Shown in pieces: positions 61,871 through 64,000 of a stretch of 64,000 bases of DNA. The notes below the pieces were generated by a model, which was not told where the DNA came from, searched no databases, and saw nothing but the letters and a program-made list of their open reading frames with translations. Each line of letters starts with the position of its first letter. Position 1 is the stretch's first letter. The stretch comes from Microlunatus sagamiharensis. GTDB lineage: Bacteria; Actinomycetota; Actinomycetes; Propionibacteriales; Propionibacteriaceae. The DNA lies in NCBI RefSeq assembly GCF_900105785.1, contig NZ_LT629799.1:4278001-4342000 (forward strand), given 5' to 3'. The position numbers and the translations under genes are program-made.

Positions 61871-61921
61871 GAACCGCCAAGGGACGACGCCATCTGATCC
61901 GGCGTCGTCCCTCAGCGGTTC
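61871..61921. terminator. Terminator between ccsB and the rhodanese gene
   Basis: Two-part stem: outer GAACCGC/GCGGTTC (61871-61877, 61915-61921) and inner GGGACGACGCC/GGCGTCGTCCC (61881-61891, 61901-61911) with a 9-nt loop. It can serve both convergent genes. Confidence 0.8.
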
Positions 61922-61944
61922 GTCTGCGTTCGGGCCAGGGCGCG

Positions 61945-62343
61945 CTAGGCGCCCAGCTCGTCGCGCCAGGCGGCCCAGCCGCCCGCCACGTCGGTGGCGC
62001 GGTGGATGCCCAGGTCCTGCAGGGCGGCGGCGGCCAGGCTCGAGGTGAACCCCTCCTGGCAGAGCACGACGACCTCGAGGTCGTACGACGCGATCGGCAG
62101 GGCCGCGTCGCTCTGCGGGTCGAGGCGCCACTCGAGCACGTTCCGCTCGATCACGAGGACGTCGTCGGGCCCGCCCTGCACGGCGCGCTGCGCGGCCGGA
62201 CGGATGTCGACGACGACCGCACCGGCCGCACGGGCTGCGACGGCCTGCGCCGGGGTCAGCCGGTCGAGGCGGGAGCGGGCGTCCTCCAGCACGTCGGCGA
62301 TGCTGCGGCGCCGGGCCAGGGGAGGGGCGGCGAGCGCGGTCAC
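61945..62343 (-). CDS. Rhodanese-domain sulfurtransferase
   Basis: 132 aa. A short helical lead, then a rhodanese domain: ARAAGAVVVDIRPAAQR, VLVIERNVLEWRLDP, active-site loop VVVLCQEGFTSSLAAAALQDLG (C95) and VAGGWAAWRDELGA. Transfers sulfane sulfur. GTG start overlaps the cysteine dioxygenase stop (GTGA), so the two are coupled: CDO removes cysteine, rhodanese may handle released sulfur. Confidence 0.88.
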   Translation of the reverse strand: MTALAAPPLARRRSIADVLEDARSRLDRLTPAQAVAARAAGAVVVDIRPAAQRAVQGGPDDVLVIERNVLEWRLDPQSDAALPIASYDLEVVVLCQEGFTSSLAAAALQDLGIHRATDVAGGWAAWRDELGA

Positions 62344-62813
62344 CAGGCCACCCCCGCCAGGCGCGACTCGACCAGGTCGAGGCGGTCGCCCTCGCGGACG
62401 TAGCCGTTCATCCGGGTGAGCGCCGGCGCGTACACGTGGATGCTCACCGCCGGCTCCAGGCCGGTGTTGGTGACCTTGTGGATGTGGCGGGTGCCGAAGG
62501 GGCGCAGCGCGCCGGTGCCCAGCGAGCGGGTCTGCGCCACGACCGCCGAACCGTCCGGCTGCAGCCGGGCGTGCTCCTCGGTGAGGGCTCCGCGGACGAC
62601 GACGAACGCGCCCGCGCTGCCGCCGTGGTCGTGCCAGTCGGTGCCCTGGCCGGGCACCCAGGTCAGCAGCCAGGCCTCGTGCTCGGGGGTGAGGGCGAGC
62701 CGGGCGTAGAAGCGGGAGACGGGGTCGTAGTCGACCAGCGGCTCCCAGAGGTGGGTGGCCTCGCCCAGGCGGGTCGCGGTGGCGGCGAGGTCGGCGAGAT
62801 GGCGTGCAGGCAT
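62340..62813 (-). CDS. Cysteine dioxygenase family protein
   Basis: 157 aa cupin. Iron ligands H61 and H63 in DWHDHGGSAGAF, and a third His in the TRHIHKVTN block (about 110-112). It oxidises cysteine to cysteine sulfinate. I chose the ATG at 62813 (MPARHLADL); a longer in-frame start would lie within the leader region. A short leader peptide gene ends 87 bases upstream, suggesting control by cysteine supply. Confidence 0.88.
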   Translation of the reverse strand: MPARHLADLAATATRLGEATHLWEPLVDYDPVSRFYARLALTPEHEAWLLTWVPGQGTDWHDHGGSAGAFVVVRGALTEEHARLQPDGSAVVAQTRSLGTGALRPFGTRHIHKVTNTGLEPAVSIHVYAPALTRMNGYVREGDRLDLVESRLAGVAW

Positions 62814-62900
62814 GGTGGGACGGTTCCTGTCGGGGCTGAGGACTGCAAGAGCGGAGGAGACCGAGGGGCGGCGTGGTCGCCGAGCCCTCACGAGGTGCGC

Positions 62901-62981
62901 CTAGAGGCGCGTGGTCATTCGACACACCGAGCTCGCCGTGCGGCGCAGGTCGACGTGTCGGCGCTGGTGCAGCGTCCTCAT
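62901..62981 (-). CDS. 26-aa regulatory leader peptide upstream of cysteine dioxygenase
   Basis: ATG at 62981, 27 codons including TAG at 62901-62903. The peptide contains RRHVDLRR and SSVCR. That is the pattern of the short actinobacterial leader peptides (RRxHVDL...C) annotated upstream of sulfur-metabolism genes, from memory. A perfect AGGAGG lies 10 nt upstream of the ATG. The single Cys near the C-terminus would let ribosome stalling report cysteinyl-tRNA supply. The mechanism is inferred; I do not see a clear terminator/antiterminator pair. Confidence 0.72.
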   Translation of the reverse strand: MRTLHQRRHVDLRRTASSVCRMTTRL

Positions 62982-63079
62982 CAGGATGTGTCCTCCTATT
63001 CCCGGGCACCACAGTAGGGAACATCGGGTTCGTGCGCACCCGGCGGTCCGGACCGTGAGACCGCTCTGCGTCGGCCTGG

Positions 63080-63085
63080 CAGACT
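63080..63085 (+). promoter_or_regulatory. Leaderless-type -10 box of mtr
   Basis: CAGACT ends 6 nt before GTG 63092. Spacing matches the other boxes, but the first base is C. Confidence 0.35.
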
Positions 63086-63091
63086 GGTCGC

Positions 63092-64000
63092 GTGCGACAC
63101 TTCGACCTCTGCGTCATCGGCAGCGGCTCCGGCAACTCCGTGATCGACGACGCGATGGACGGCTGGTCGGTGGCCATGGTCGAGGCCGGGACCTTCGGCG
63201 GGACCTGCCTCAACGTCGGCTGCATCCCCACCAAGATGTACGTCTACCCGGCCGACCTCGCCGCCTCGCCGCAGCAGGCCAAGGAGCTCGGCGTCGACCT
63301 CGAGCTCGTCGACGTGCGCTGGCCCGACATCCGGGACCGGATCTTCGGTCGCATCGACCCGATCTCCTCCGGCGGGCGCGACTGGCGGGCCGGCCGGCCG
63401 AACGTGACCCTCTACGAGCAGCGCGGCCGCTTCGTCGGCGACCACGAGCTCCTGCTGGAGGCCCGCGACGGGCACCCGGAGACGACGATCACCGCCGACC
63501 GCTTCGTGCTGGCCAACGGCAGCCGCGCGGTCGTCCCGCCCTTCCCGGGGATCGACGCCGTGCCGTACGAGACGTCGGACACCGTCATGCGCCTCGACGC
63601 TCTCCCGCGCTCGATGGTGATCGTCGGGGGCGGCTACATCGCCGCGGAGTTCGCGCACGTCTTCTCCTCCTACGGCGTGCAGGTGACGATCGTCGGCCGC
63701 TCCCCGCAGCTGCTCTCCCGCGAGGACGCGCAGGTCTCCGAGCGCTTCACCGAGCTGCTGGGCCGCCGGGTCGACGTCCGCACGAGCACCGAGGTGCAGC
63801 GCGTCGACCGGCGTCCCTCGGGTGACGGCGTGGTCGTCACCGCCCGGACCAAGGAGGGCGTCGAGTCCACCATCGAGGCCGACGTGCTCCTCGTCGCGAC
63901 CGGGCGGACGCCGAACGCCGACACGCTCGACCTGGACCGGACGGGCGTGGAGGTGGACGACGACGGCCGCGTGGTCGTCGACTCCCGGCAGCGGACCGGG
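63092..64000 (+). CDS. mtr: Mycothione reductase, N-terminal part (runs off the window)
   Basis: Open to the window end, 303 residues visible. FAD site FDLCVIGSGSGNSVIDD at the N-terminus, redox-active C39 and C44 in GGTCLNVGCIPTKMYVYPADLA, NADPH site MVIVGGGYIAAEFAHVFSSYGVQVTIVGRSP, and LLVATGRTPNADTLDLDRTGVEVDDDGR. The YVYPADLA segment after the CxxxxC motif separates Mtr from other disulfide reductases. It reduces mycothiol disulfide with NADPH. GTG start chosen for leaderless-type spacing and family N-terminus. Divergent from the leader peptide/CDO operon. Confidence 0.92.
   Translation, partial: MRHFDLCVIGSGSGNSVIDDAMDGWSVAMVEAGTFGGTCLNVGCIPTKMYVYPADLAASPQQAKELGVDLELVDVRWPDIRDRIFGRIDPISSGGRDWRAGRPNVTLYEQRGRFVGDHELLLEARDGHPETTITADRFVLANGSRAVVPPFPGIDAVPYETSDTVMRLDALPRSMVIVGGGYIAAEFAHVFSSYGVQVTIVGRSPQLLSREDAQVSERFTELLGRRVDVRTSTEVQRVDRRPSGDGVVVTARTKEGVESTIEADVLLVATGRTPNADTLDLDRTGVEVDDDGRVVVDSRQRTG

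Follow-up and report, generated by a model that had tools for sequence, protein, structure and literature searches.

We analysed a 64,000-nucleotide (nt) stretch of the Microlunatus sagamiharensis genome (contig NZ_LT629799.1, positions 4,278,001 to 4,342,000; hereafter the window, numbered from its first letter), in which a 26-codon open reading frame (ORF) precedes an operon for a cysteine dioxygenase (CDO)-family protein and a rhodanese. Judged from its sequence, this ORF is real, more than a chance frame, and belongs to the known actinobacterial leader family NF042934, in which we find the core cysteine encoded almost without exception by UGU. Our preferred reading, to which we assign a probability of about 0.5, is that the ORF is a translated, cis-acting leader that controls the CDO–rhodanese operon through the speed at which this UGU is decoded, with a pause there turning the operon on. 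The features on which this reading draws are the following.

62901 to 62981, minus strand: leader ORF of 26 codons, MRTLHQRRHVDLRRTASSVCRMTTRL, member of NF042934, 95.1% identical to Microlunatus flavus against 66–70% for its flanks
62992 to 62997, minus strand: leader ribosome-binding site AGGAGG, read from the sequence
62946 to 62963, minus strand: codons for RRHVDL (family core R-x-[HA]-V-D-L-x-R), with synonymous codon variation across the family
62922 to 62924, minus strand: core Cys codon TGT, residue 20, the proposed sensing codon, followed by CGA; TGT in 139 of 141 distinct cores
62814 to 62900, minus strand: leader-to-CDO spacer of 87 nt, C-rich (41 C, 22 G), a candidate Rho-loading stretch
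62340 to 62813, minus strand: CDO-family gene, 157 amino acids, ATG at 62813 (PF05995, E = 2.1e-18)
61945 to 62343, minus strand: single-domain rhodanese gene, 132 amino acids, GTG start, 4-nt overlap with the CDO gene (PF00581, E = 3.6e-8)

The leader belongs to a known actinobacterial family

The leader starts with ATG at 62981, its stop codon TAG ends at 62901, and its single Cys codon is residue 20. The original prediction, made from the DNA letters, had placed a short ORF with AGGAGG 87 nt upstream of the CDO gene, and these coordinates are correct; the range it gave (62340–62981) covers the CDO gene and the leader but misses part of the rhodanese gene, which reaches 61945. The peptide scored 35.2 bits against the NCBIfam model NF042934 ("cis_reg_atten, putative leader peptide"; curated cut-off 27), with residues 3–20 aligning to positions 2–19 of the 19-position profile, and thus has the same conserved core. 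Its resemblance to actinobacterial sulfur-gene leader peptides, suggested beforehand, is borne out by this match. As is characteristic of NF042934, it is a short ORF on the same strand as, and just upstream of, a sulfur-metabolism gene, here 87 nt before CDO–rhodanese.

This was the sole NF042934 match found above cut-off in the 4.4-Mb genome, the runner-up reaching 15.6 bits among the 150 of 184 first-look candidates that were scored. Against the models of the Ms4527A (NF042936) and Ms5788A (NF042933) leaders, the peptide scored 19.2 and 15.4 bits, far below the cut-off of 45 that both carry. It differs from those leaders in having one Cys codon instead of a Cys run, in its Shine–Dalgarno start and in preceding CDO, not a cysteine-synthesis gene. 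In a sample of the class, NF042934 matched at E ≤ 0.001 in 199 of 296 genomes and above cut-off in 177, compared with 0 of 14 control genomes. A DNA pattern for RRHVDL, run over the window's own genome with 2 mismatches allowed, was set aside as too unspecific (182 + 204 matches, compared with 105 + 95 for the reversed pattern).

The nearest named relative is M. flavus (locus L062), whose CDO is 93% identical. DNA identity between the two is 95.1% (77/81) in the leader ORF, 90% in CDO, 66% in the spacer and 70% in the upstream 100 nt; being far better conserved than its flanks, the leader is not a relic. The two amino-acid differences fall at codons +4 and +10, positions that are variable family-wide. 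The spacer measures 87 nt in the window and 70 nt in M. flavus; as these lengths differ by a number that is not a multiple of 3, an alternative in-frame GTG start at 62891 is disfavoured.

A near-invariant UGU follows the peptide core at a fixed distance

We collected 155 leaders (60 loci of the leader searches, 80 further places and 15 beside CDO), which give 141 distinct cores when compared from codon −3 to +12. The 80 further places were hand-chosen from among the best matches to spread over genera, so weak members are under-sampled. Leaders were aligned on the H or A of [HA]VDL, with the core Cys 11 codons later; three that lie outside the motif regular expression (L170, L181 and L218) were added by hand. 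The expression requires the D, yet none of the 155 collected leaders is without it.

The core Cys is TGT in 139 of the 141 distinct cores. By sampling stage, the counts were 60 of 60 first-fetched loci, 66 of 66 distinct cores with CDO-linked leaders, and 75 of 77 further places fitting the motif expression. The exceptions are L198, which has TGC, and L224, which has one extra codon and TGC for its Cys. TGT is the only codon used in 53 of 55 labelled genera, a count that omits nine named loci. Other Cys codons in the same peptides are TGC in 139 cases and TGT in 41 (Fisher p = 1e-51, relatedness ignored; as the counted sequences are related, such p-values are only indicative). At position +4, Cys is encoded by TGC 52 times and by TGT 3 times, and the long ORFs of the window use TGC 125 times and TGT once.

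The constraint extends one base further. The core TGT is followed by C (102), T (36) or A (3) and in none of the 141 cores by G, while G follows 34 of 70 genomic TGT codons; the residue encoded after the core TGT is mainly R, P, C, L, stop or Q. In 131 of 141 cores, the Cys stands 0–7 codons ahead of the stop. NF042934 is an amino-acid model that ends at the core Cys, so the search itself exerted no selection on the third base or on the codon that follows. The UGU rule, derived here and not taken from a database, holds for the window leader, whose Cys codon had been proposed as placed for sensing and does sit at the family's near-invariant position. In a few leaders viewed by eye for frameshifting at the UGU, the +1 frame of the window stops two codons on.

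Upstream of the UGU, conservation lies in the peptide. R(−2) and D(+2) occur in 141 of 141 distinct cores and R(+5) in 138, while the codons of conserved residues vary, with five Arg codons at R(−2) and D encoded by GAC in 104 and GAT in 37. Kept residues and spacing with varying codons are as expected for a nascent-chain element. How the RRHVDL part acts, which the original prediction had left open, is thereby partly answered, in that the key residues and their spacing to the UGU are what is conserved; the RRxVDLxR nascent chain probably helps sensing at the UGU.

UGU is read by tRNA-Cys through G–U wobble, and a 3′ pyrimidine weakens codon reading by some tRNAs. A near-invariant UGU with a pyrimidine (Y) next suggests that sensing occurs as one UGU codon is decoded. 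Placed at a fixed distance behind a conserved nascent stretch, this UGU-Y looks like a step tuned to slow down when the supply of charged tRNA-Cys falls.

The leader recurs before CDO

Linkage in the window's genus was assessed by searching one set of 196 genomes of the order twice and the genus once more in greater depth; the order and genus leader searches scored part of the first-look candidates (for example 150 of 205 in genome G429). A CDO match (E ≤ 1e-10) is present in five of the 7 genomes of the genus, each time with a leader above cut-off just upstream, which in each genome is the only match at E ≤ 0.01 among the candidates scored. The other two have neither a CDO match nor a leader.

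On the evidence of the compared loci, the leader is also placed before CDO in other actinobacterial families. With a hidden Markov model (HMM) built here, it was found before CDO in 10 of 35 named CDO loci, four of Propionibacteriaceae type, three from Terrabacter/Terracoccus and three from Virgisporangium. Six of these ten peptides, first met in a motif scan, had entered the HMM, whereas L074 and the three from Virgisporangium had not. Ninety of the 196 order genomes have a CDO match; among the 30 whose loci were examined, 8 carry the leader before CDO, one of them the window and another (L098) identical to L062 over the compared stretch. Two leaders from the class search, L170 and L181 (family f20, genus g23), also precede CDO: the gene downstream of L170 matches PF05995 with E = 1.2e-52, and that of L181 clusters with it in BLAST comparisons. 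A tree of 66 CDOs, of which 19 have a leader, requires at least 7 state changes, 5 of them forced by well-supported branches (some branches are long and placements vary).

Three of the CDO loci have an unusual arrangement. In L116 and L118 (order family f2), the leader ORF and the start of CDO share 44 nt in different frames, and the AGGAG of CDO lies about 40–45 nt behind the UGU codon, making a natural construct for testing coupling. In L065, the leader frame is open into CDO, which may be a leader–CDO fusion protein or a frame error in a metagenome-assembled genome.

In the window CDO, YAR aligns with YGR of 3EQE, and the HDH and SxHxY motifs are present, these being residues that we take to bind metal and substrate. 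By alignment, with the cupin metal-ligand motif and an Arg where the substrate carboxylate is bound, it looks to be of the Arg type, a predicted true cysteine dioxygenase. The closest solved sequences are 8QFL–8QFR, named 'Cysteine dioxygenase', which we take to be ergothioneine-degrading enzymes; the idea of an ergothioneine dioxygenase was not adopted, as the window protein has Arg where 8QFL–8QFR have Ser. In L074 and L077, but not L073 (all Terrabacter/Terracoccus), there is an overlap between the leader-bearing CDO gene and the beginning of a gene for a luciferase-like monooxygenase. This gene and its successor in L074 score above the cut-off of TIGR03860 (NtaA/DmoA family), and in L077 the genes were recognised by eye; monooxygenases of this type are presumably associated with organosulfur use.

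Targets of the family and the sign of regulation

The ORFs downstream of 137 of the 141 distinct leaders fall into 30 similarity groups; they were chosen automatically in GC-rich DNA, with some starts wrong. Pfam was run on representatives of 18 groups, and the targets recognised included CDO_I, rhodanese, nitrite/sulfite reductase, DUF4395, SDF symporter, NMT1-type binding protein, PAPS reductase, APS kinase, TauD, TauE, sulfatase, ThiS, CbiX and two BPD_transp_1 permeases. The CDO group numbers 17, of which 13 were found through CDO searches, L021 and L141 through the own-genome and order leader searches, and L170 and L181 through the class search. Leaders also stand before SDF-family (dicarboxylate-type) symporters in L143–L147, L182, L222 and other loci, which may be cystine importers under cysteine control.

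Most classified targets are sulfur-acquisition genes, which argues for the usual logic in which starvation turns expression on. The original prediction expected induction by excess cysteine because CDO destroys cysteine; this we did not find supported, as the sequence fixes no sign and the targets point the other way. The reverse logic has a model in TnaC of the tna operon, a leader peptide before a catabolic operon with a C-rich region after the leader stop, which senses free tryptophan through its nascent chain. The window leader shares with it the place before a catabolic operon and the C-rich stretch after the stop, and differs in that the codon itself is constrained.

By such TnaC-like logic, the RRHVDL...C chain would arrest at plentiful cysteine, or full translation of the leader would favour expression, and the operon would dispose of excess cysteine. 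In keeping with this, CDO consumes cysteine, the window enzyme being Arg-type by alignment; arrest peptides show the same kind of conservation of core and spacing; little of the leader follows the Cys before its stop, beside spacers that are C-rich as a group; in the window's genus, the one leader match per genome precedes CDO; and a 2005 study proposes a Rho mechanism 'similar to tna' for mycobacterial cys leaders (PMC1262725). Yet the same element is found mostly before sulfur-acquisition genes, where induction by abundance makes little sense, and the near-invariance of UGU, not UGC, implicates decoding, not the finished peptide. The order leader–CDO–monooxygenase in L074 and L077 also speaks against disposal. 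We therefore place starvation-induced expression somewhat ahead of abundance-induced expression, which we regard as unlikely but worth serious attention; what is left falls to a minor or different role for the leader.

Proposed mechanism and evidence against it

In the reading we prefer, the leader would be translated in M. sagamiharensis, and when charged tRNA-Cys is short the ribosome would wait at the UGU, residue 20. The RRHVDLxR stretch, by then in the exit tunnel, would make this pause productive. What happens to the transcript beyond would then depend on the paused ribosome, which would either block Rho from the C-rich spacer or open up the CDO start region. If the operon follows most of the family, pausing would switch it on, and the CDO-family enzyme would serve thiol-sulfur salvage, not the disposal of excess cysteine.

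The proposed Rho step was examined through the spacers, which are 40–112 nt long in loci where they could be measured. C-minus-G in the 50 nt after the leader stop is 0.186 for CDO leaders (n = 13), 0.156 for others (n = 125) and 0.033 for 260 control upstream stretches; L065, L116 and L118, whose frames overlap CDO, were left out, L170 and L181 are counted among the others, and some leader spacers may be present among the controls. As a group, the spacers are thus C-rich, which is compatible with a Rho-loading region. A scan of 61900–63100 for intrinsic terminators and sigma-70 promoters found none, so the terminator of a classical attenuator was not detected, and Rfam gave no match in the window at gathering thresholds, nor in 62780–63095 at E up to 5.

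Several observations weigh against the preferred reading. An Arg-type CDO burns cysteine, and such an enzyme should not be induced by lack of it. Linkage is incomplete, with no detectable leader at 25 of the 35 named and 22 of the 30 order CDO loci, and L066 sits within a leader-bearing CDO clade yet has none that we could detect; the L102 leader, one of the eight at order loci, is weak at 8.4 bits. Among the family's targets, POR, SBP_bac_5 and GST_C_2 have no obvious tie to sulfur. The window's own spacer skew of 0.18 (first 50 nt) is reached by 12% of the controls. A family-wide hairpin in the leader ORF was rejected, the mean z being +0.27 over 66 cores. Sequestration of the CDO Shine–Dalgarno sequence by the leader found no support in mean accessibility, which was 0.47 with real and 0.50 with shuffled leaders (17 loci, p = 0.24). 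Finally, a DNA-binding regulator may also act at the palindrome described below, which would be a separate regulatory route.

With the leader removed, as in the stalled state, accessibility of the CDO start was 0.58 compared with 0.47 when free (p = 0.001). This value is also above that of shuffled leaders (0.50), so removal of any upstream RNA explains the rise.

One structure was found within the leader ORF itself.

62920 to 62960, minus strand: possible 11-bp hairpin including the UGU (arms 62960–62950 and 62930–62920), in the window and M. flavus only

Its z is −2.1 in the window and −3.0 in M. flavus; given the family mean, it is a local feature and not one of the family. Three of the four base differences between the two leaders fall in this hairpin and, viewed by eye, preserve pairing.

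The hairpin bears on another explanation, that the UGU is kept for an RNA reason, as a pairing element or a UGUY motif for a protein or RNase, and not for slow decoding. Such a reason would fit a constraint that reaches into the next codon's first base irrespective of the residue encoded, and the UGU of the window and M. flavus does lie in a helix in which the three base differences keep the pairing. Against it stand the lack of family-wide structure and the folding energies: UGC would fold 1.0 kcal/mol better on average, and about half of the UGU bases are unpaired in minimum-free-energy folds. We judge an RNA reason to be quite improbable.

A palindrome upstream of the leader

The region upstream of the leader holds one further candidate regulatory feature and a divergent gene.

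62999 to 63021, no strand assigned: operator-like inverted repeat TTCCCTA-N11-GGGAA, ending just before the AGGAGG of the leader
63092 to 64000, plus strand: divergent mycothione-reductase-like gene that runs off the window; its best NCBIfam matches are mycothione reductase models, below their cut-offs

The scores of the divergent gene are below cut-off probably because the window holds only 302 residues of the protein. Within the palindrome, a possible −10 element (TACTGT) was noted by eye only.

In a further rival explanation, control would be transcriptional in the first place, by a DNA-binding regulator at this palindrome, with the leader as a minor second layer or a relic. The pattern [TC]CCCTA-N11-GGG[AT] has 8 matches in the 320 nt upstream of CDO at 7 of 64 loci including the window (one palindrome being counted on both strands), and 0 matches in 269,198 bp elsewhere in those loci; it is single-copy in the window. 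Three of the seven loci (L081, L086 and L110) have a CDO without leader, and such sites precede CDO in other families too, whether or not a leader is present. In the window's own genome, a further exact site (L236, C1:3722771) precedes an alkanesulfonate-monooxygenase-like gene (410 bits, below the cut-off of 518). The genome's 4 exact TCCCTA-N11-GGGA sites are, however, few compared with 2 for the reversed-pattern control, the strict palindrome is absent at 57 of 64 loci, and a leader ORF that is 95% identical between flanks of 66–70% is not a relic. We consider primary control at the palindrome rather unlikely.

Two other copies of the palindrome, L237 and L238 (C1:4272993 and C1:4275040), lie near genes that look by eye like sulfotransferase genes, of which two were tested and gave no NCBIfam match. 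Both sites seem to have counterparts in genome G323 with similar neighbours.

Relation to known leader systems

In Mycobacterium smegmatis, short ORFs with contiguous Cys codons are described as attenuators dependent on cysteine availability (PMC9031893 and PMC13236596, citing Canestrari et al. 2020). The window leader resembles these in being a short upstream ORF with a Cys codon, its proposed response being tied to cysteine availability, and differs in that they are leaderless with contiguous Cys codons, whereas it has one Cys codon and an AGGAGG.

Cys leader peptides of actinobacterial cys/cbs operons, including that of Propionibacterium acnes, were predicted in 2005, with the mode of regulation called unknown; the Rho mechanism offered for the mycobacterial leaders was rated there as a weak prediction (PMC1262725). 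These predictions share with the window a short Cys-containing ORF without terminator hairpin and the suggestion of Rho-dependent termination. They have runs of Cys codons before cys/cbs operons, and CDO is not named in the part of that paper available, whereas the window leader stands before CDO.

For M. tuberculosis, six ORFs are predicted to act as cysteine-responsive regulators (PMC9094748), and eight leader peptides are listed for Streptomyces lividans, none of them assigned to cysteine in the available part (PMC8079986). The cysS leader of Rhodobacterales (uORFC-8-2 motif) has, like the proposed window sensor, upstream-ORF Cys codons that sense tRNA-Cys charging, but it uses mostly UGC, in tandem codons, with stems and an intrinsic terminator (PMC8632094); in the window family, UGU is near-invariant and we found no terminator.

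Our literature search returned no UGU rule and no CDO target among the matches listed, most subscription papers lying outside it, so that Canestrari et al. or D'Halluin et al. could hold the UGU rule. A search for 'RRHVDL' returned the string only in a hepatitis C context, and one for cysteine dioxygenase with leader peptide and actinobacter- returned only a review of genetic code expansion. As far as the search showed, the near-invariant UGU-Y codon and CDO as a target are new.

Implications for cysteine sensing in Actinomycetes

More broadly, and with somewhat less assurance than for the window operon itself, we suggest an Actinomycetes-wide hybrid sensor, in which a fixed nascent-chain element (R-x-[HA]-V-D-L-x-R), with its H/A exactly 11 codons before a single dedicated, slowly decoded UGU-Y wobble codon, would take the place of a Cys run. 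This sensor would have been recruited repeatedly before a cysteine-oxidising enzyme, either driving salvage under cysteine limitation or acting with its sign inverted.

The experimental work that we found cited concerns mycobacterial leaders with contiguous Cys codons. For this widespread actinobacterial family, the UGU rule gives a test of how cysteine is sensed that needs only one synonymous base change, UGU to UGC. CDO as a target raises the question of why a cysteine-degrading enzyme carries a sensor that elsewhere stands chiefly before sulfur-acquisition genes. Resolving it would show either that these thiol dioxygenases act in salvage or that the sign of the attenuator is inverted.

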